Shown here piece by piece: positions 9,172-23,886 of a stretch of DNA of 44,766 bases. The number at the start of each line of letters is the position of its first letter. Position 1 is the first letter of the stretch. The notes below the pieces were generated by a model. That model worked only from the letters and a program-made list of their open reading frames with translations. It ran no database searches and was not told the origin of the DNA. The stretch comes from Actinomycetota bacterium (lineage in GTDB: Bacteria > Actinomycetota > Actinomycetes > S36-B12). The DNA is taken from assembly GCA_947449035.1 (NCBI GenBank), contig CANFQC010000016.1:1-44766 (forward strand). Direction: 5' to 3'. The translations under genes and the position numbers were made by a program.

Positions 9172-10035
9172 CTAATCGACGATGAACGCATGGGTCGGCA
9201 CACCGCGCACGCCCCAGTCAGCGACATAGATGTTGCCCGCCGCGGGGCACTCGACAATCTCCTGCTCGGTCATCTTGTATCGACCAGTGGTGATCAGTGC
9301 CTGCGTGCCGTCAACTCCGCCGAAGGCGAGACTCGTGACATTCGGTGCCGGGAACTGGTGCACTTCCAATTGCTCCCCCATCGGCGAATGACGCGTAACG
9401 ATGCCCGAACCAAAGTGCGCCAGCCATACGCAGCCGTGCTCATCGACGCTGAGGCCATCAGGCAGCCCGGTGTCGGGATCGAATGCGCAGAACACTCGAC
9501 CATTGCTGATCTCACCCAATTCTGCGTCGAAATCGAAGACCTGGATCGAGTACTTCAGTGAATCGACGTAATAGAACGACCGATCATCCGGGCTCCAACC
9601 AAGACCATTGGAGACGGTGACTCCCTCGAGCATGACCGTGGCCTCACCACGTGAGTCGATGCGATGGAGCCGGCCACGCTCCGCACGTTCCTTGTCGCGA
9701 CTTCCCGTCCAGAGCCGACCGCGCGAATCGACCTTGGCATCGTTAAGAAGCAGCATCTCGTGTGATTCGAGTGGCTTGCCAAAGGGAACCTGACCACTGC
9801 CATCGGCCTCGCACAGGATCAAACCGTGCAATGACACGAGCAGGAGCTGACCTGAGGAAGTCGGCAGAACCGCAGACACGACCTGACCGACTTCGAAGGT
9901 CTGAAGGTCACGTGTCGCAGGATCGAGTCGGTGAACAAGTCCGGCAGTGATGTCGACGAACAACCAGGTCGATGTCGAGGCATCCCAGACCGGGCCTTCG
10001 GCAATGTAGGCACCCAGCTCGACTATGCACTCCAT
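9172..10035 (-). CDS. SMP-30/gluconolactonase/LRE family protein
   Basis: This 287-residue beta-propeller protein has the SMP-30 metal-site pattern: Glu in AEGPVWDAS near residue 13, Asn in LLNDAKVDSRGRLWTGS near 100, Asn in VSNGLGWSPDD near 148 and Asp in GLPDGLSVDEHGCVWLA near 200. Family members are calcium- or zinc-dependent lactonases acting on sugar lactones such as gluconolactone; the substrate here is unknown. The ATG lies six bases after TAGCCT, consistent with a leaderless transcript starting inside the 3' end of the upstream small gene, which ends nine bases before. Confidence 0.9.
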   Translation of the reverse strand: MECIVELGAYIAEGPVWDASTSTWLFVDITAGLVHRLDPATRDLQTFEVGQVVSAVLPTSSGQLLLVSLHGLILCEADGSGQVPFGKPLESHEMLLLNDAKVDSRGRLWTGSRDKERAERGRLHRIDSRGEATVMLEGVTVSNGLGWSPDDRSFYYVDSLKYSIQVFDFDAELGEISNGRVFCAFDPDTGLPDGLSVDEHGCVWLAHFGSGIVTRHSPMGEQLEVHQFPAPNVTSLAFGGVDGTQALITTGRYKMTEQEIVECPAAGNIYVADWGVRGVPTHAFIVD

Positions 10036-10047: not shown

Positions 10048-10356
10048 CTTGGGGTCACTGATGAGCACGCGGGCAAACTCGAAATCACGGCAGCTGATGA
10101 CTCGAGCTGGGCGCCTGCCATAGACAGCGCAGTAATCCTTAGTTCCCTTGTAGCGCATCGTGCCGAGCATGATGACACCCGGCAAGCCAGTACCCGGGCA
10201 TCGCCAACCATGAAGTTGATGCCAACCATCATCAACGTGCTCATCGGAGATGATGCTGGCCGCCGGAATCACGAACTCGCGGCGCAATCCGCCCAGCACC
10301 TCCCAGCGCGAAAGATGCACGCGAAAGCCAGCTGGTTCCTCGCTGATACTCGCCAT
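10045..10356 (-). CDS. Small PH-like conserved hypothetical protein
   Basis: A 103-residue soluble protein reads FRVHLSRWEVLGGLRREFVI, then GWRCPGTGLPGVIMLGTMRY and YCAVYGRRPARVIS. This order (a beta hairpin, an I-P-A/W-x-x-I turn, GWR--GT--PG, a final hydrophobic strand and a D-x-x-x-x-A-R/V tail) is that of a small bacterial PH-like family common in actinobacteria, often annotated only as hypothetical. No catalytic residues are evident. The ATG follows TAGGCT by six bases, so it is probably leaderless, and the SMP-30 gene follows nine bases downstream. Confidence 0.65.
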   Translation of the reverse strand: MASISEEPAGFRVHLSRWEVLGGLRREFVIPAASIISDEHVDDGWHQLHGWRCPGTGLPGVIMLGTMRYKGTKDYCAVYGRRPARVISCRDFEFARVLISDPK

Positions 10357-10362
10357 GATCTG

Positions 10363-10368
10363 AGCCTA
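10363..10368 (-). promoter_or_regulatory. Leaderless -10 element of the PH-like gene
   Basis: TAGGCT, six bases, then ATG at 10356. It is identical in hexamer and spacing to the elements before ftsK, rimO and the sulfotransferase gene. No Shine-Dalgarno is present. Confidence 0.6.
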
Positions 10369-10386
10369 CGGATCTTCGGCGAATTT

Positions 10387-12153
10387 TCAGCCACCGAAGT
10401 GACGTGCCGTCACAGGGACCGGGCCGAAGTCCCGGGGCCTAGGTAGGAAGGATTCCGCACGCAGGTACGCCGCGGTCACGCGCGGAAGGTCTCGCCTAGC
10501 TGGGTACATGAGGTAGCGCGGTGACCAGGTCGGCCCGAACTTCCTGCTGAAGGCATGGAGCGAGGCGATCTGAAACCAGCGGGAAGCGAGCTTCAGCGCG
10601 GCATCGTGAAGTCGAGCGACGTGGCCGGCCTCCGGGAGCGCGCCCCGTTCCAGCGCGGATCGGAAGGGGGCGAAGTTCAGCGATACTCGCTCGATTCCAT
10701 GCCGACCCGCTTGCTCGATCGCCGAGACAATGAGGGCCTCGGTAGTGCCGGAGGGCGCAGATGGCGAGCGGCGCATCACGTCAAGTGACCAGCCGGCGCC
10801 GCCCCACGGCACGAACTGGAGGATGGCAAGCACCTCACCATGTCTCTCGGCCCACGTGATGATCGCGTCAGGATCCCTTGGATCAGCGAAGCGGCCCAGA
10901 GCCATTGAGTAACCACGCTCAACGTGACCTCGTCTCCAACTGCCCACGAGAGATCTCAGCTGATCGCGCATGTCAACTTCGAGATCCGCAGCACGTTCCA
11001 GCCGCATCACGACTCCCGCGCGCACGACTCGTGACGTCGCATTCCTCACGCTCTTGCGCTCGCGACCCTCGAGGGTGAAGGTCTCGCAGTCGATCAACGC
11101 CTCGTCGCCAATCTCCATAGACTTGAAATTGCCGGCGAGACTCCACGCCTGAAGGGCCCCGGCTCCGCACGCGGCCACCGCGGGTATCCACGCTAGGTCG
11201 CGCGCTCGGGCACAGAACTCCTGCAGTGCCCGCGGCCAGGCCTCCTCGTCCCCGAGCGGGTCACCGATCGCGAGCATGACGCCATTCACCACGGCATAGG
11301 AGATCGCGGCATCGCCGCACGATGACCAGAGCACATGCCTGTCCTCGCGCGTCGCGAAGTAGGCCAACGAGTCGGCGTCGCGCGGCTCTGCGCCGCGCTC
11401 TAAGAATTCGCGCACCCGCACCTGCGCATCCCGTGAGTGCATCGGATCGCGACGCATGCAGCGCAGCAGGAAGTACAGGCACATGACCCCTAGAGCGATA
11501 CCCATGCCGAGCAGTGCGAAATACACGAAGTCATCCGCCCGCGAGTCGTTGCCGTCGATCACGGTGGGGATGCCCACGAGGCCGAGGATCACTGCCCCGA
11601 GCCGAGCCAACGATGACGTACCGTGCGGACTGATTCGCTCATGCAGGCTTACGAGAAGGAAGCCGAGTGTCACGGAGAGCACCAGCGTGCCCGTGATCAC
11701 CCAGACCACGCGGCGCTGTGTCAGCGACGCCGTCGGCACGTAGAACTCGCGACGGAAAGTCACGAGCACGATGAGCAGCAGTGCACTCACGGCCATGGGG
11801 AGCATTGCGCGAAATCTCAGGTGCTCGAATGCAACGGTGCGCACCATGAAGGAGATGCTCGAGAGAATGAGTGCCAGGAGCCAGGCACGCTGCTTGCGAC
11901 GACCGAGTCCGAGGGCAAGGCACCACAGCAGAACACCGGCACCGGCGGTCGTCGCCGTCGCTGCATTCACCATCACGCCGGGGACGATCCCGAGTGAGGC
12001 CGCGAGGCGCGAGTGCATAGGCGGCGCAATCACCGTGAGGAGATCGATGAGACCGAGAACCATGCACGACACGGCAGCAACGCGCGGCACGGCGTTGCGA
12101 AGTCCCGCAGGAGTTCCCGCCGATCGGACGAGGGCCCGCCCATGCGCATTCAT
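10387..12153 (-). CDS. MprF/LysX-like membrane protein with DUF2156 domain
   Basis: This 588-residue protein has about six membrane helices in residues 25-235 and a cytoplasmic C-terminal half. That half contains the DUF2156 / phosphatidylglycerol lysyltransferase C-terminal fold (PF09924, a tandem GNAT-like fold), about 255-560. Visible blocks are VLWSSCGDAAISYAVVNGVM, AIGDPLGDEEAWPRALQEF, VPWGGAGWSLDVMRRS, IERVSLNFAPFRSALERG and FSRKFGPTWSPRYLMYP. Relatives transfer lysine or alanine from aminoacyl-tRNA to phosphatidylglycerol or another acceptor. The N-terminal helices do not show the PF03706 flippase signature, which is on a separate gene at 1251-2342. Its ATG at 12153 is divergent from the GH18-CE4-GT2 gene across 152 bases, suggesting a role in the same surface layer. 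The acceptor and amino acid are not known. Confidence 0.85.
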   Translation of the reverse strand: MNAHGRALVRSAGTPAGLRNAVPRVAAVSCMVLGLIDLLTVIAPPMHSRLAASLGIVPGVMVNAATATTAGAGVLLWCLALGLGRRKQRAWLLALILSSISFMVRTVAFEHLRFRAMLPMAVSALLLIVLVTFRREFYVPTASLTQRRVVWVITGTLVLSVTLGFLLVSLHERISPHGTSSLARLGAVILGLVGIPTVIDGNDSRADDFVYFALLGMGIALGVMCLYFLLRCMRRDPMHSRDAQVRVREFLERGAEPRDADSLAYFATREDRHVLWSSCGDAAISYAVVNGVMLAIGDPLGDEEAWPRALQEFCARARDLAWIPAVAACGAGALQAWSLAGNFKSMEIGDEALIDCETFTLEGRERKSVRNATSRVVRAGVVMRLERAADLEVDMRDQLRSLVGSWRRGHVERGYSMALGRFADPRDPDAIITWAERHGEVLAILQFVPWGGAGWSLDVMRRSPSAPSGTTEALIVSAIEQAGRHGIERVSLNFAPFRSALERGALPEAGHVARLHDAALKLASRWFQIASLHAFSRKFGPTWSPRYLMYPARRDLPRVTAAYLRAESFLPRPRDFGPVPVTARHFGG

Positions 12154-12293
12154 CGCCTTGAGTACACCCGTTCAGGAGCCAAGAGCCAAGGGCCGCCCAG
12201 CCTCCACTCAGCCTTCGCATCCGGTTGCTTATGGAGCGCTGAGAATTCGAGTCCTGCAGGTGTCGGGCGCTCGATTGATCGAGATGTTGTGCT

Positions 12294-12299
12294 TACCGT
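12294..12299 (+). promoter_or_regulatory. Leaderless -10 element of the GH18-CE4-GT2 gene
   Basis: TACCGT, six bases, then ATG at 12306. It lies in the 152-base divergent gap (12154-12305) that must also hold the promoter of the MprF-like gene. Nothing else is recognised in that gap. Confidence 0.5.
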
Positions 12300-12305
12300 G
12301 ATGGC

Positions 12306-15300
12306 ATGCGCCGTCCCTTGATATGGATCACTGCCGGTCTGCTCATTGCCGTCATCGGCCTTGCGGACCTCACTGCCGCGGCCGTGACGGTAGTCGGCCT
12401 CCTCGCACTTGCCCTCGTGATTCGATTTCGTGGCGGACGAGTCGCGCGCATCACGGCCATCACTCTCGTCGCAGCACTGACCCTCGTCGGCCTCGTCGCC
12501 GCGCTCGCCGTGCCGAGGTACCGGGCCAGCAGTGATCCGCTGCTCGTTCCCGCGGCGTCGGCAGCCTCACACGTCGTTGCCAGCAAGAAGGGTAACTTCG
12601 AGGTCAGCGGATTCGTGGTCTCCGACAATGACAACGCCACGAACGCCGTGGACAACCAGGCGCCATCGCTCAGCAACATCGTCGCCACGGGCGGTCTGGT
12701 GAACTCCGATGGCAGCTTCCTCTACTCCGGAGTGCGCAATGCCCTCATTCATGCGCACCTCTCGGGCGCTCGCGGCGAGCTGCTGCTCCAGAACTACGAC
12801 ACCTCAGCGCACGGAGGCGCAGGCGATTTCTCCGGCGCACTCGCTCATGCAGTGCTCGCCTCCGACTCCTCTCGCCGCCTGTATGCCCAAGGGGTGGCCT
12901 CGACGGTCGCTGCGGAGCACTGGGACGGCGTGGTGCTCGATTTCGAACAGGTGGCCTCATCCGATCAGCCGGCGATCGCGGACCTGCTCGCAACGTTGCG
13001 CCATGCGCTACCCGCGACATCGCGACTGGCCATCAGCGTGCCCGTCGATCAATCGGCCAGCACCGGAGGCTCAGGGGTCGACCTGCATGCGATCAGCTCG
13101 ATCGTCGACGAGGTCAACCTCATGACCTATGACCAGCACGATCCGACAGGTAGCCCCGGGCCGGTCTCCTCCCTTCCCTGGATCAAGAGGGCCTATGAGT
13201 CTGCGCTCACGCAGGTGCCCGCGGACAAGCTCTCGCTCGGCGTTGCCGGATACGGCTACGCCTGGGGGCCGTCGGCTCAGCAGTGGGGCTCCTCCTTCTC
13301 GCCGGCACAGGCCCGCGCCCTGGTATCGAAGGATCACCTCACCCCTCACTGGGATGCCACGAACGGCGAGTGGACGGCCACCTTGGCCGATGGCACTGTT
13401 TTGTGGTGGGCCGACGGCAAGTCCATGGGCGAGGTCATCAAGCTCGCGCACACGGCCAAGCTGGCCGGCGCCTCGGTATGGGAGCTTTCAGTCGCCGACC
13501 CGCTCGGCCCGGCGATCGGCAGCATTCCAGTGGCACGCCTGTCTGTGCAGCCAGACGCCGGACGCCAGATCGAGAGAGTCCCCGCCAAGGGCCTCGTGGC
13601 ACTCACCTTTGACGATGGACCTGATCCGACATGGACGCCGCAGATCCTGGCGATCCTCGCCGCGAAGAAGGTGCCGGCCACTTTCTTCGACATCGGTATG
13701 AATGCCGAGGCCAATCCCGGGCTCGTCACCCAGGAGGTCGCAGACGGTCACGTCGTCGGCGATCACACCTACTCGCATCTCGATCTGACCACGATCCCCC
13801 GCTGGCGGGCAAAGCTCGAGATTGCCGCCGGAGGCTGGGTGCTCCATGGCATCACCGGCAGGACTCCGTCGCTCTTCCGCTCGCCCTATGGCGCGGCCGA
13901 GCTCGCGGACTCGAACTCTGCTTCGCACACCGATCTCGCGGCTTCACTCGGGCTGCAGCCCGTGGGATGGAATGTCGATTCCCTCGACTGGACGCGGCCG
14001 GGTGCAGCAGCGATCACCTCACGCGTGGCCGACGCAACGGGCAATAACCTGATCGTGCTTCTCCATGACGGGGGCGGGGACCGATCCCAGACGGTCGCTG
14101 CCCTGCCAGGAATGATCGACCAACTGCGCGCGCGGGGCTATGTGTTCGTCACCGCCGATCAGCTCGATGGATCGATCATCAGCGCCTATGACCCGCCACC
14201 GACATCCGCGACGGGCTTCATCGGCGCTCTGCTCTCGATCGCCTCCTTCCGGCTTTGGACGTCATCGCATGTCGTGGTGATTTGGGCAATGCTCGCCCTG
14301 GGACTGCTGTCACTCGCCAGGATTCTCATTGCCTGGCCGCTTGCCATGGTCCACCGACGCAGGATCGGCCGGCATCCGCGCGCACCATTCCTGAGTCCTG
14401 AGCCGTCGGCCGAGCATGACGCTGAGATGCGCGTGACAATCCTCATCCCCGCGCACAACGAGGAGGCCACGCTACTTAAGTCGATTGCCGCGCTCACAGG
14501 AGTTCGCGGCCCGATCGAGCAGGTGATTATCGCCGAGAATGGCAGCACTGATGCGACCCTCGATGTCGCGCATGCCGCGGTTCGCGACTACCCGCAGTTG
14601 CCAATCGAGGTGGTCTCCCGCATGCAGGGCGGCAAGGCCGAGGCACTCAACGCATGCCTGCCAATCGTGCGCGGCGACATCATCGTCGTGCTTGACGCTG
14701 ACACGGTGCTCGATCCTGACTTCGTCGTCAACGTGCTTCCGCACTTCCGCGATCCGCACGTCGGTGCCGTGGCGGGCAACGTCAAGGTGGGCAATCGACG
14801 TCGCCTTCTGCCGAGGCTCCAGTCCCTTGAGTACGTCATGAGCCTGTCTCTCGACCGACGTGCGCAAGCACTACTCAATGTCGTGTCCGTCGTCCCCGGT
14901 GCCGCCGGCGCATTCCGCCGAGGCGCACTCGTGCGCGTCAATGGCTGGCCGGATCGGACCCTCACCGAGGACACCGACCTCACGGTCGCCCTGCTGAGCG
15001 CCGGATGGAACGTCCCCTACGAGCCGGCGGCCATCAGCTGGACCGAGGCTCCCGAGAGCGTCTCGGATGTGATCAAGCAGCGCCGCCGTTGGTCATACGG
15101 CGCTGCCCAGGTCAGCACTATCCACGCCTCGCGAATGCTCGACGTGCGCGAGGGCAAGGTCGGACTACTCGCCCTCCCGTGGCTCTTCGTGGCCCAGGTA
15201 CTGCTTCCAGCTGCAGGCCCGCTCGTCGATGCCTTCCTGATCTGGCTGATTCTCAATGGCGACTGGAGCCCCGCGCTGGGCATGCTCATCCTTGCCATCG

Positions 15301-15515
15301 CTGCCGAGACTGCCCTGGCGGCCTGGTCACTGCACACGGAGCGCGAGAGTCTCTGGCAGCTCTGGCTGGTACCGGTGAGCCGCGTGGTCTGGAGGCCCCT
15401 CATGCTCGTCGCAGTGTCAGGCAGCTTGAGGTCGTGGCTCCTGGGACGCAGCGTGGCCTGGCGTCAGCTCAGGCGCCGCAACACAGTGATCGTGCCTGTC
15501 CGGACCACTCACTAG
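12306..15515 (+). CDS. GH18 / CE4 deacetylase / GT2 synthase fusion protein
   Basis: This 1069-residue protein combines three enzymes. Two N-terminal helices (about 5-70) lead to a GH18-type domain (about 95-385) with DGVVLDFE near 206, the DGxxxDxE catalytic motif with its Glu intact, and NLMTYDQHD. A CE4/NodB polysaccharide deacetylase follows (about 425-610) with TFDDGPD, GDHTYSHLD, RSPYGA, GWNVDSLDW and LLHDGGG, so all five motifs are present. After a membrane helix near 650-690 comes a processive GT2 synthase (about 707-940) with DAD near 797, TEDTD and QRRRW, then C-terminal helices (about 955-1050). This predicts a polymerase that makes a polysaccharide, probably of GlcNAc type, and modifies and trims it outside. 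The functions resemble PgaB plus PgaC (poly-GlcNAc) combined in one chain. The product is inferred, not known. Confidence 0.9.
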   Translation: MRRPLIWITAGLLIAVIGLADLTAAAVTVVGLLALALVIRFRGGRVARITAITLVAALTLVGLVAALAVPRYRASSDPLLVPAASAASHVVASKKGNFEVSGFVVSDNDNATNAVDNQAPSLSNIVATGGLVNSDGSFLYSGVRNALIHAHLSGARGELLLQNYDTSAHGGAGDFSGALAHAVLASDSSRRLYAQGVASTVAAEHWDGVVLDFEQVASSDQPAIADLLATLRHALPATSRLAISVPVDQSASTGGSGVDLHAISSIVDEVNLMTYDQHDPTGSPGPVSSLPWIKRAYESALTQVPADKLSLGVAGYGYAWGPSAQQWGSSFSPAQARALVSKDHLTPHWDATNGEWTATLADGTVLWWADGKSMGEVIKLAHTAKLAGASVWELSVADPLGPAIGSIPVARLSVQPDAGRQIERVPAKGLVALTFDDGPDPTWTPQILAILAAKKVPATFFDIGMNAEANPGLVTQEVADGHVVGDHTYSHLDLTTIPRWRAKLEIAAGGWVLHGITGRTPSLFRSPYGAAELADSNSASHTDLAASLGLQPVGWNVDSLDWTRPGAAAITSRVADATGNNLIVLLHDGGGDRSQTVAALPGMIDQLRARGYVFVTADQLDGSIISAYDPPPTSATGFIGALLSIASFRLWTSSHVVVIWAMLALGLLSLARILIAWPLAMVHRRRIGRHPRAPFLSPEPSAEHDAEMRVTILIPAHNEEATLLKSIAALTGVRGPIEQVIIAENGSTDATLDVAHAAVRDYPQLPIEVVSRMQGGKAEALNACLPIVRGDIIVVLDADTVLDPDFVVNVLPHFRDPHVGAVAGNVKVGNRRRLLPRLQSLEYVMSLSLDRRAQALLNVVSVVPGAAGAFRRGALVRVNGWPDRTLTEDTDLTVALLSAGWNVPYEPAAISWTEAPESVSDVIKQRRRWSYGAAQVSTIHASRMLDVREGKVGLLALPWLFVAQVLLPAAGPLVDAFLIWLILNGDWSPALGMLILAIAAETALAAWSLHTERESLWQLWLVPVSRVVWRPLMLVAVSGSLRSWLLGRSVAWRQLRRRNTVIVPVRTTH

Positions 15516-15523
15516 CGACGCCG

Positions 15524-15558
15524 GCTGCGAGGTCGCCGAAGCCCGCGGTGCTCGCAGC
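15524..15558. terminator. Hairpin between convergent genes
   Basis: GCTGCGAG (15524-15531) and CTCGCAGC (15551-15558) form a perfect 8-bp stem around a GC-rich 19-base loop in the 59-base gap between the fusion gene and the convergent phosphodiester glycosidase gene. There is no long T run, so termination efficiency is uncertain. Confidence 0.4.
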
Positions 15559-15574
15559 ATTTCCTGTCGACGAA

Positions 15575-16837
15575 CTAGTTGCCGGGAGTGGTCACCGCGA
15601 TGAAGTCGCGGCTGACGGGTTGCAGATACCGGTCGGCCGGCCGCTGGAAGTTCCCCAGCTTGTGCGGGTTGTGACCTGCGCCTGACTTGGGATACGACAT
15701 GAAAGAGATCCACGATCGGTTGATGTCGAGCTGCATGGCCGTGACTGCGCCGGCGCGCTTGAGAACATCGGCGAGGGCGGCGACGGTAAGAGCGTCGCCG
15801 GCGGCGTACACCAAGTCTCCCTGGGCCGTGACGCCAACTCCCGAGCGCCAAACCGATAAGTCACCACCGACCGTCGCACCCCAGTTCGACTCGACATTGC
15901 CGTTGAGATTCGGGGCAAAGGCACCGCCTTCAATCAGCGGACGCAGGTTCTGCCGCACGTAGGCCACGTCTTTCGACATGGAGACGTCCTGGTCCCAGGT
16001 ACCGACAGTGGCGTGCCCGTCGCGATAGATCACCAGCGACGCGGCGCCGGAAATCAGCGTGCCGGAGGTCTTGCCATTGTCGTAGAAGCCGCCCTGCGCG
16101 TCCTTCATCTTGAAGCCGCTGTTGAAGGTCGCGATCACGCTGGGGAGCTCGGCGTTGCTGACATGGTCGGGCAGTGACCACGATCCGCCGGCAGACGGGC
16201 GACCCGGTTCTTGATAGCCCGGATGCAGGGCGAATCGCAGCTGATGACTCATCCAGGCGACGCCCGTGAGATACGAGGTGTGCAGCGCGTCGGGTCGCAC
16301 GAAGGTGGTCTGCACCAGGGCATCGCGACTATCTCGTCCAATTGGCGCGAATACCCCCTCTCCCGGAAGTGGCTGGTGCGCCGGAGTGCTCATAGGCGCA
16401 TGGAGTGGCTCCGCCGCAGCACCAGCACGTGCGGTCGGGTTGTGCGTGGCCAGTGCCGCATTCGAGGCCAGAATGCCGAGGTCCGGTGCGCCGCCGACCG
16501 CGGGCGGATTCATCCGGTATTGAATGCTCTCGGCTACCGTCACAAGCGGCCCGAGACCATTGTCACGTCCCCATTCGGCGAGCTTCACGACCAGGTCTTC
16601 ATTGCCGGGCACTCGTTCAGCCTGGATGACGATAATGCCGCCGGACACGGCAACCAGCCCAGCGGTCAAGGCACCGTAATAGATGATGGTCCGACCGAAA
16701 TGTCGCCGCCTTCGCCTTCTCGGTCGAGGGATCTCCCCAATATTTGGGGCACGGACTCCTGAATGCACGTAGGTCGTACTTCCGGCCGACTGCGCCTTCG
16801 AAGACTGCAAGTTCGAATCGTCTGCAACAAGGGCCAT
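15575..16837 (-). CDS. Phosphodiester glycosidase (NAGPA-domain) family protein
   Basis: This 420-residue protein has a basic N-terminus with RPRRRRRRHFGR followed by one membrane helix (about 50-72), so the rest is probably extracytoplasmic. The C-terminal domain (about 210-418) carries SVIATFNSGFKMKDAQGGFY, LIEGGAFAPNLNG, AVTAMQLDINRSWISFM and HNPHKLGNFQRPADRY. These are features of the phosphodiester glycosidase family PF09992, named after the uncovering enzyme that removes GlcNAc from a phosphodiester. The middle (about 75-200) is low complexity and not recognised. The gene is convergent with the GH18-CE4-GT2 fusion, which suggests action on the same or another cell-wall glycopolymer such as a teichoic-acid-like chain. 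The substrate is unknown. Confidence 0.85.
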   Translation of the reverse strand: MALVADDSNLQSSKAQSAGSTTYVHSGVRAPNIGEIPRPRRRRRRHFGRTIIYYGALTAGLVAVSGGIIVIQAERVPGNEDLVVKLAEWGRDNGLGPLVTVAESIQYRMNPPAVGGAPDLGILASNAALATHNPTARAGAAAEPLHAPMSTPAHQPLPGEGVFAPIGRDSRDALVQTTFVRPDALHTSYLTGVAWMSHQLRFALHPGYQEPGRPSAGGSWSLPDHVSNAELPSVIATFNSGFKMKDAQGGFYDNGKTSGTLISGAASLVIYRDGHATVGTWDQDVSMSKDVAYVRQNLRPLIEGGAFAPNLNGNVESNWGATVGGDLSVWRSGVGVTAQGDLVYAAGDALTVAALADVLKRAGAVTAMQLDINRSWISFMSYPKSGAGHNPHKLGNFQRPADRYLQPVSRDFIAVTTPGN

Positions 16838-16947
16838 TCTTCGATTAGACCAGTGAATCGTGTCGCGCCTAGTTCACCTCAACGCCCGCTCAGCGCAGGC
16901 GCAACTCGTGCACAGCAACGCGCGGCTACGCCATCGCAGGACGGGAA

Positions 16948-22620: not shown

Positions 22621-23886
22621 ATGAATCGACGCGCTCGACTACGTGCCGCCGTGTTACTCGTGATATTTGGGACGACTACATGTGTGGCCTTGAGCGCTCC
22701 GCCGGCGAGCGCTGACACCGGATGCCCCGCAGCCAGTAGTGGTTACGGCGGTGGTTCCGGCACAAGTGGCGACCCGTATCAAATCTCCGCGCCCGGCGAT
22801 CTGCAGCGACTTCGGGACACCTCAGCTGATTACGCCAGGTACTTCTTGTTCACTCAAGACATCAACATGGGCGGGTGCGTGTGGAGCGCGCCGATCTCCG
22901 ACGGCTCGACAACGTTCACCGGGAGACTCGATGGCGACGGGCATGTCATCAATGGCCTATCCGTCAATGTCGCCAACCCATCGCTCAGTTTCGTTGGCCT
23001 TGTCGGGTATCTCGGCGCGAACGGCGAGATACGAGACCTCGGCTTCACCGGCAACGTCTCTCTCACTGATCAGGGAAGTGGAAGCTCAGCCTATGTAGGC
23101 GGGCTGGTCGGCTTCACTTTCGCACCTACGACGATCACGGGGTCATTCGCCACAGGCGATGTGAGCGCGAACAAGACTTCAAGCGGGAGTTCTGTCAACG
23201 TATGGGCCGGTGGTCTCATCGGCCTCAGCCAGAGCACGGTCTCAAATTCCTATTCCACGGGAAACGTCAGCGTGTCTGCTACGTCCACCGCAGGTAGCGG
23301 AAGTGATGTCGCCATCACTGCCGGCGGCGCAGTGGGTGGTATCGGAGTTGGTCCGATGACAAATGTCTATGCCACTGGCACCGTGAGTTCCACCGGAACT
23401 GCAGATACTGTCTCCCGCCGCATGGGTGGTTTCACCGGGACACGCGAGGTGTCATCGAACCTCACATCGCTCTTTTGGAACACATCATCCTCAGGCTTGT
23501 CCTCGGCAACCGGATTCGGCTCGTCAACGGGAATGAATGGCGCCACGACATCATTGATGCAGACCGCCTCCACCTTCACGAATGCTGGTTGGTCACTGAC
23601 ACCAGGTTTCGATGCCACGAGCACATGGGGTTTGTGCTCGGCAGCCAGTGACGGACTTCCGTACTTGACAGCGTTCTACGCAAGCTCACCATGCATCCAG
23701 GCCTCAGATACGTCTCAGATTCCGCCATCATGGCTTCAGGCCACCGGACGCATTAACGGACAAGAATCCTGCGAGATTGGCTGGAATCCGTCGTGGGCGC
23801 AGTGGATGAATGGTGGCACTGGCGGATTTGTATGCAACCGCGAGGTGTACTGGGACGTTCACGCGAGCAATTGGTCGGTGCGTTAG
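22621..23886 (+). CDS. Secreted GLUG-repeat protein with Cys-containing C-terminal module
   Basis: This 421-residue protein has a Sec signal peptide (about 1-31, ending PPASA). It then has a region rich in Gly, Ser and Thr with beta-solenoid character: SGTSGDPYQISAPGDLQRLR, RLDGDGHVINGLSVNV, YVGGLVGFTFAPTTITGSFA, AGGLIGLSQSTVSNSYSTGN and GGAVGGIGVGPMTNVYATGT. The last three are GLUG motifs (PF07581). The last 55 residues form a distinct module, LQATGRINGQESCEIGWNPS followed by WAQWMNGGTGGFVCNREVYW, with two Cys that may be disulfide-bonded. Adhesion or surface binding is plausible but unproven. The gene breaks the usual lexA-dinG neighbourhood, and its base composition looks less GC-rich than that of its neighbours, which suggests acquisition. 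Confidence 0.8.
   Translation: MNRRARLRAAVLLVIFGTTTCVALSAPPASADTGCPAASSGYGGGSGTSGDPYQISAPGDLQRLRDTSADYARYFLFTQDINMGGCVWSAPISDGSTTFTGRLDGDGHVINGLSVNVANPSLSFVGLVGYLGANGEIRDLGFTGNVSLTDQGSGSSAYVGGLVGFTFAPTTITGSFATGDVSANKTSSGSSVNVWAGGLIGLSQSTVSNSYSTGNVSVSATSTAGSGSDVAITAGGAVGGIGVGPMTNVYATGTVSSTGTADTVSRRMGGFTGTREVSSNLTSLFWNTSSSGLSSATGFGSSTGMNGATTSLMQTASTFTNAGWSLTPGFDATSTWGLCSAASDGLPYLTAFYASSPCIQASDTSQIPPSWLQATGRINGQESCEIGWNPSWAQWMNGGTGGFVCNREVYWDVHASNWSVR

Follow-up and report, generated by a model that had tools for sequence, protein, structure and literature searches.

A GH18-CE4-GT2 polysaccharide synthase and a LysX-type lysyltransferase on a genomic island of an actinobacterium: a candidate module for a cationic cell envelope

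The stretch of DNA analysed here (the window) comprises the 44,766 nucleotides of contig CANFQC010000016.1 (assembly GCA_947449035.1) from an Actinomycetota bacterium of the lineage S36-B12. It contains three neighbouring genes, encoding a fusion of a glycoside hydrolase 18 (GH18) domain, a CE4 deacetylase and a GT2 synthase, a LysX-type aminoacyl-lipid synthase and a phosphodiester glycosidase of the NAGPA family. This three-gene layout had been put forward in the original prediction, made from the sequence alone, and all three open reading frames (ORFs) were found where it had placed them. The features are as follows:

10251 to 16947, no strand: island of 6.7 kb, absent from the same-genus genome G002
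10387 to 12153, minus strand: LysX-type aminoacyl-lipid synthase, 588 aa, with a transmembrane (TM) region and LPG_synthase_C/DUF2156 (Pfam, NCBIfam, tree)
12306 to 15515, plus strand: predicted trifunctional polysaccharide synthase GH18-CE4-TM-GT2-TM, 1069 aa (Pfam, catalytic residues, AlphaFold (AF2) model, fold matches)
12603 to 13520, plus strand: GH18 domain, residues ~100-405, predicted outside the membrane (Pfam match and extent of the fusion GH18 profile; DxE D212/E214)
13581 to 14171, plus strand: CE4 deacetylase domain, residues ~426-622, predicted outside the membrane, PgdA/MatB-like (Pfam, alignment, fold matches)
14403 to 15140, plus strand: GT2 synthase domain, residues ~700-945, predicted cytosolic, PgaC/IcaA-like, with DxD, ED and QxxRW present (Pfam, NCBIfam, alignment)
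15575 to 16837, minus strand: membrane-anchored NAGPA-family phosphodiester glycosidase (PF09992) with one N-terminal TM helix (Pfam)

The central gene is present as a single copy in the host genome and encodes GH18, CE4 and GT2 in this order within one open frame, with Pfam matches to Glyco_hydro_18 at residues 182-395 (9.8e-23), Polysacc_deac_1 at 427-551 (1.1e-30) and GT2 at 709-932 (1.4e-35). The GH18 motif reads DGVVLDFE; D212 and E214 were invariant in a first alignment of six fusions, and the GxxxDxE motif is present in 128 of 134 fusion ORFs, some loci being counted twice. Against a fusion GH18 profile built without the window protein, the GH18 domain scored 149 bits, and the tested GH18s from outside fusions reached 82-108 bits. 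In a 55-sequence alignment the CE4 residues D436, D437, H487, H491, R525, D558, D561 and H587 as well as the GT2 residues D797, D799, E888, D889, Q925, R926, R928 and W929 are invariant. The GT2 half is closest to PgaC/IcaA (TIGR03937, 167.8 bits, below the curated cut-off of 422.3 bits; NodC, 84.6 bits; NCBIfam). The AlphaFold model has a mean predicted local distance difference test (pLDDT) score of 83.6 and a predicted template modelling (pTM) score of 0.65, with all three domains mostly above 90 pLDDT. The best Foldseek matches are chitinase/SleL/YdhD for GH18, PgdA-type deacetylases for CE4 and hyaluronan synthases for GT2 together with the adjoining membrane helices. Hydropathy and the positive-inside rule predict a TM helix at ~51-69, the GH18-CE4 ectodomain outside, a second TM helix at ~657-675, GT2 inside and further C-terminal TM helices. 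The assignment of all three domains to a single 1069-residue protein was thus borne out by Pfam, by the catalytic motifs and by the model, the topology being predicted.

The divergent gene at 10387-12153 lies 152 bp from the fusion gene, and no second LPG_synthase gene was found in the genome. Its product matches LPG_synthase_C (1.5e-74) and tRNA-synt_2_TM (1.7e-10) in Pfam and reaches 423.7 bits with NCBIfam LysX NF002821, under the cut-off of 742. Its LPG_synthase_C domain groups with actinobacterial LysX in a 10-row clade (100/100), apart from the MprF proteins of the other clusters described below. Neither the MprF flippase domain LPG_synthase_TM (Pfam) nor a C-terminal lysyl-tRNA synthetase domain (Pfam, NCBIfam) was found in the 588-aa product. 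The description of this neighbour as MprF-like DUF2156 therefore holds for the LPG_synthase_C/DUF2156 lysyltransferase part; the protein is of the LysX type and not a full MprF. LysX, the actinobacterial MprF homolog of Corynebacterium and Mycobacterium, makes lysyl-diacylglycerol (Lys-DAG), and in C. pseudotuberculosis it raises the resistance to cationic peptides and aminoglycosides (PMC10580965). The window protein resembles LysX in its TM region and in the clade of its LPG_synthase_C domain and differs in lacking the lysyl-tRNA synthetase domain; from MprF it differs in joining LPG_synthase_C to tRNA-synt_2_TM instead of the flippase. A stand-alone LPG_synthase_TM (MprF flippase-like) protein is encoded at 1251-2342, native and outside the island, where it is kept across the family alongside glyoxalase and AI-2E genes; possibly it supplies the flippase that the LysX-type protein lacks.

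The three genes make up a cleanly bounded island, which is gained or lost as a unit within the genus. In genome G002 (locus L163) 114 bp between an SMP-30-like and a nitroreductase gene replace window positions 10251-16947, so that the fusion, LysX-type and NAGPA genes are jointly missing from this locus, and neither the fusion nor the LysX-type gene was found elsewhere in G002. In 58 relatives of the same order nothing beyond partial, one- or two-domain similarity to the fusion was detected. The remaining window is a core chromosomal stretch with recA, recX, tRNA-modification genes, lexA, nrdR and nrdJ; NrdJ is 98% identical to that of G002 and most flanking proteins are 81-95% identical. The GC content at third codon positions of the island genes (0.73-0.78) resembles that of their neighbours, and composition was therefore set aside as proof of transfer; the foreign origin is deduced from the empty site in G002 and the absence in relatives. 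Gain is the simpler account, and loss in G002 is possible. The SMP-30-like gene at the island's edge (9172-10035) shares just 63% identity with that of G002, compared to 81-98% for the other flanking proteins, and may itself be a replacement. A GLUG-motif protein at 22621-23886 adjoins lexA within the otherwise core region.

Proteins of the GH18-CE4-GT2 type were found in many phyla by plasmid records, a genome-contig scan (best 80 of at least 583 matches analysed) and a survey of Gemmatimonadota, in which 52 of 249 genomes carry the fusion; gene calls in fetched loci were ORF-based. Carriers include Sphingomonadaceae, Gemmatimonadota, Bacteroidota, Acidobacteriota and Cyanobacteriota. As most fusions were found outside Actinomycetota, the framing of the architecture as an actinobacterial one, and with it an actinobacterial invention, was rejected. 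A strong match is present in 53 of 395 genomes of the class to which the window belongs, its own genome included, and in the class loci examined by profiles this match is CE4-GT2 with no GH18 in the same ORF. In one family of the class (f97), a fusion-type GH18 protein is encoded after the CE4-GT2 gene (L309, L310, L312, L313, L315); in L310 and L315, the two checked by Pfam, it has an acyltransferase-3 (IcaC-like) domain at its N-terminus. Since these GH18 proteins join an acyltransferase-3 domain beside CE4-GT2, GH18 is tied to the CE4-GT2 machinery in two forms. Fusions whose neighbours do not include MprF were seen in Bacteroidota (L080, L083, L091, L092, L095, L100), a cyanobacterium (L084) and Acidobacteriota (L086, L101). 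A sphingomonad-like fusion is encoded on QDFQ01000004.1 (L087/L263, genome G470), titled Arthrobacter sp. TPD3018, whose MprF groups with that of Stakelama; judged by these sequences, the label is probably wrong.

A lysyl-lipid synthase recurs beside the fusion in two further phyla. On plasmids of S. parapaucimobilis and Sphingobium, VirJ/AcvB and MprF genes lie on either side of the fusion or after it, and profile scans located LPG_synthase_C within 4 kb of it in eight sphingomonad loci with three gene orders (L067, L068, L073, L078, L099, L139, L257, L258); at L139, from Stakelama pacifica DSM 25059, the order is fusion, AcvB, MprF. The same holds for 12 of 50 Gemmatimonadota loci, mostly with VirJ (L214, L219, L221, L222, L224, L228, L231, L234, L236, L240, L244, L245). 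In three of the latter the fusion protein ends in a VirJ/AcvB domain of its own (PF06057 with 1e-40 and 7e-45 in the two tested with Pfam), and the lysyl-lipid synthase gene is divergent as in the window:

L219, 7734-11870: four-domain GH18-CE4-GT2-VirJ/AcvB protein, adjacent MprF gene divergent
L236, 7278-11507: four-domain GH18-CE4-GT2-VirJ/AcvB protein, adjacent MprF gene divergent
L244, 7041-11519: four-domain GH18-CE4-GT2-VirJ/AcvB protein, adjacent MprF gene divergent

AcvB was shown to bind the synthase of lysyl-phosphatidylglycerol (Lys-PG) and to hydrolyse this lipid outside the inner membrane (PMC13197417). The AcvB-type proteins of the clusters keep the nucleophile elbow GxSxG, and the position matching AcvB Asp340 is often altered in Gemmatimonadota. 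Only 19 PF09924 genes occur in the 41 fusion genomes of the contig scan, and five of these lie within 10 kb of the fusion. Canonical MprF (E<=1e-80) occurs in 24 of 52 Gemmatimonadota genomes with the fusion and in 20 of 197 others (Fisher p 3e-8), and in 12 of the 24 it is adjacent to the fusion where ~0.09 would be expected; both the Fisher test and the Poisson estimate are descriptive, as they were run on related genomes uncorrected for ancestry. The conservation of neighbours, which had been named as the check on the proposal, thus stands for DUF2156/MprF, which recurs far above expectation, and for the joint gain or loss of the three genes in the genus, and falls for the NAGPA glycosidase. 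Because the window's lysyltransferase is of the LysX and not the MprF lineage, its pairing was assembled separately; by this sequence evidence the pairing arose at least twice. Among open-licence PubMed Central papers no report was found of a link between poly-GlcNAc (PNAG) and MprF or between GH18-CE4-GT2 proteins and MprF.

The NAGPA match of the convergent gene is 1e-6 (29.5 bits, gathering score 25). Comparison to structures in the Protein Data Bank gave only short repeat-like matches to designed proteins. The gene lies next to no other fusion examined, and elsewhere in the order its relatives have unrelated genes around them and lie away from fusions; it was therefore rejected as a conserved partner and is regarded as a lineage-specific accessory of the island.

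One CE4-GT2 fusion has a characterised role in PNAG production: MatB of the MatAB system is needed for PNAG in Streptomyces and has GT2 inside and CE4 outside the membrane, with an IcaC-like gene beside matB (PMC5972031). The window protein shares this arrangement, with an extracellular CE4 and a cytosolic GT2 joined by a TM segment (topology predicted) and the catalytic residues present, and its CE4-GT2 half shares ~35-43% identity with such homologs from the class; it differs by the additional N-terminal GH18 and by the absence of an IcaC-like neighbour. PgaB/PgaC and IcaA/IcaB offer the same functions of synthase, deacetylase and, for PgaB, hydrolase, and PgaC_IcaA is the best match of the window GT2. 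In contrast to these systems the window has everything in one protein, neither its CE4 nor its hydrolase, a GH18, is of the PgaB type, and no PgaA or PgaD was seen. Clades of GT-fused PgaB without pgaA/pgaD exist, GH18 being unmentioned in the main text of that report (PMC7112194). The window recalls the MprF/LpiA-AcvB operon, whose MprF-AcvB pairs adjoin the fusions of Gemmatimonadota and sphingomonads, in having a lysyl-lipid synthase beside the module; it differs in that AcvB is lacking and that the island has no MprF flippase domain.

From the domain content, the intact motifs, the topology, the island status and the recurrent lysyl-lipid link, which were observed or computed, we infer the identity of the polymer, the activities and the purpose of the system. 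The three genes may constitute a transferable cationic-envelope module, which would combine a partly deacetylated poly-GlcNAc-like polymer with a lysylated lipid; to this reading, drawn from sequence comparison, we assign a probability of about 0.5. GT2 would polymerise UDP-GlcNAc in the cytosol and the chain would be extruded via the membrane helices of the fusion itself. Outside, CE4 would create free amines by stripping some of the N-acetyl groups, and with the chain cut by GH18 the product would be a partly deacetylated poly-GlcNAc like that of MatB/PgaC. Lysine from lysyl-tRNA would be attached to a membrane lipid by the LysX-type neighbour, giving Lys-DAG or Lys-PG, so that both polymer and lipid would become positive, possibly in the service of cationic peptide resistance, adhesion or acid tolerance. 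That the polymer is aminoacyl-modified, as the original prediction had envisaged, is a guess, and the evidence fits a parallel lysylation of membrane lipid equally.

Several observations weigh against the cationic-envelope module. The fusions annotated just as glycosyltransferase (Sphingomonas, Sphingobium, Prevotella, Deinococcus, Gemmatimonadota and others) share domain order, TM layout and catalytic residues with the window protein, but their ~60-residue linker between GH18 and CE4 is mostly missing in it (alignment columns ~495-560; present in five others). In the CE4-GT2 tree the window protein lies outside the 19-row actinobacterial CE4-GT2 clade and branches between the actinobacterial CE4-GT2/MatB clade and the GH18 fusions, groups with support values of 100 and 97, respectively; the tree is compatible with a single origin of the three-domain architecture as well as with two. 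Because of the missing linker and the in-between branching, function can be transferred from MatB or from the fusions only by analogy. Since the CE4 domain matches PgdA-type and not PgaB/IcaB-type deacetylases, more than one linkage and substrate would be conceivable. The majority of fusions have no MprF neighbour, neither MprF nor LysX was seen near any of the ~65 actinobacterial CE4-GT2 loci inspected, some of which had short flanks, and AcvB is absent from the window, with no VirJ profile match across the 44.8 kb. Finally, the counts are not phylogenetically independent, the adjacency being inherited within Gemmatimonadota and within sphingomonads.

The alternative that survives best is that the island genes came together by chance of transfer, with a stand-alone MatB-like synthase and a LysX that lysylates lipid independently, the MprF neighbourhoods elsewhere being a separate matter. 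The different lineage of the window LysX, the actinobacterial CE4-GT2 loci without such a neighbour and the NAGPA gene, which shows that the island can hold genes without a conserved link, all speak for it. It is nevertheless considered unlikely, since the sole LPG_synthase gene found in the genome lies 152 bp from the sole fusion gene in the divergent layout of L219, L236 and L244, and the association recurs in two further phyla. A functional link is favoured because the association is seen in separate phyla, with altered gene orders, with a gene fusion and, in the window, with a different enzyme lineage.

Improbable, to a further degree, is a product other than beta-1,6-poly-GlcNAc, i.e., a chitin/chitosan-like beta-1,4 oligomer or polymer, or a sugar on a lipid resembling glucosaminyl-phosphatidylglycerol (GlcN-PG), on which CE4 and GH18 would act. 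The relatives of CE4 and GH18 (PgdA, SleL/chitinase) act on beta-1,4 substrates, a tendency also shown by the CE4 of MatB (PMC5972031), hyaluronan synthase is among the GT2 fold matches, and aminosugar lipids such as GlcN-PG exist (PMC12713373). However, the GT2 domain scores higher with PgaC/IcaA than with NodC, and its modelled C-terminal channel-type helices would suit a processive synthase. The synthesis of GlcN-PG was set aside as the principal explanation, since it relies on other enzyme families, with GT4 in place of GT2 and a COG3233 deacetylase in place of CE4 (PMC12713373).

Most doubtful is that the lysyl lipid (Lys-PG or Lys-DAG) formed by MprF/LysX is a lysine donor for an AcvB-type transferase acting outside the membrane on free amines of the emerging deacetylated polymer, which the fusion of AcvB to the synthase in L219, L236 and L244 makes worth testing and to which its position beside MprF and the fusion in other loci and the retained elbow with an often changed Asp340 position would be suited, but AcvB was characterised as hydrolase and not as transferase (PMC13197417), the window is without it and no report of aminoacylated PNAG was found among the open-licence papers.

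Poly-GlcNAc-type polymers and lysylated lipids have so far been studied separately as routes to cationic peptide resistance, surface adhesion and acid tolerance. Their linkage across three phyla, in one group by a lysyl-PG hydrolase fused to the synthase, would make both parts of one process, and offers candidates for a cross-talk between polymer and lysyl lipid and for the reason why AcvB exists. If lysine were indeed passed from the lipid to the polymer, a lysylated cationic exopolysaccharide would result that was not described before. The occurrence of the same pairing in unrelated bacteria suggests that two routes to a positive cell-surface charge work as one system.

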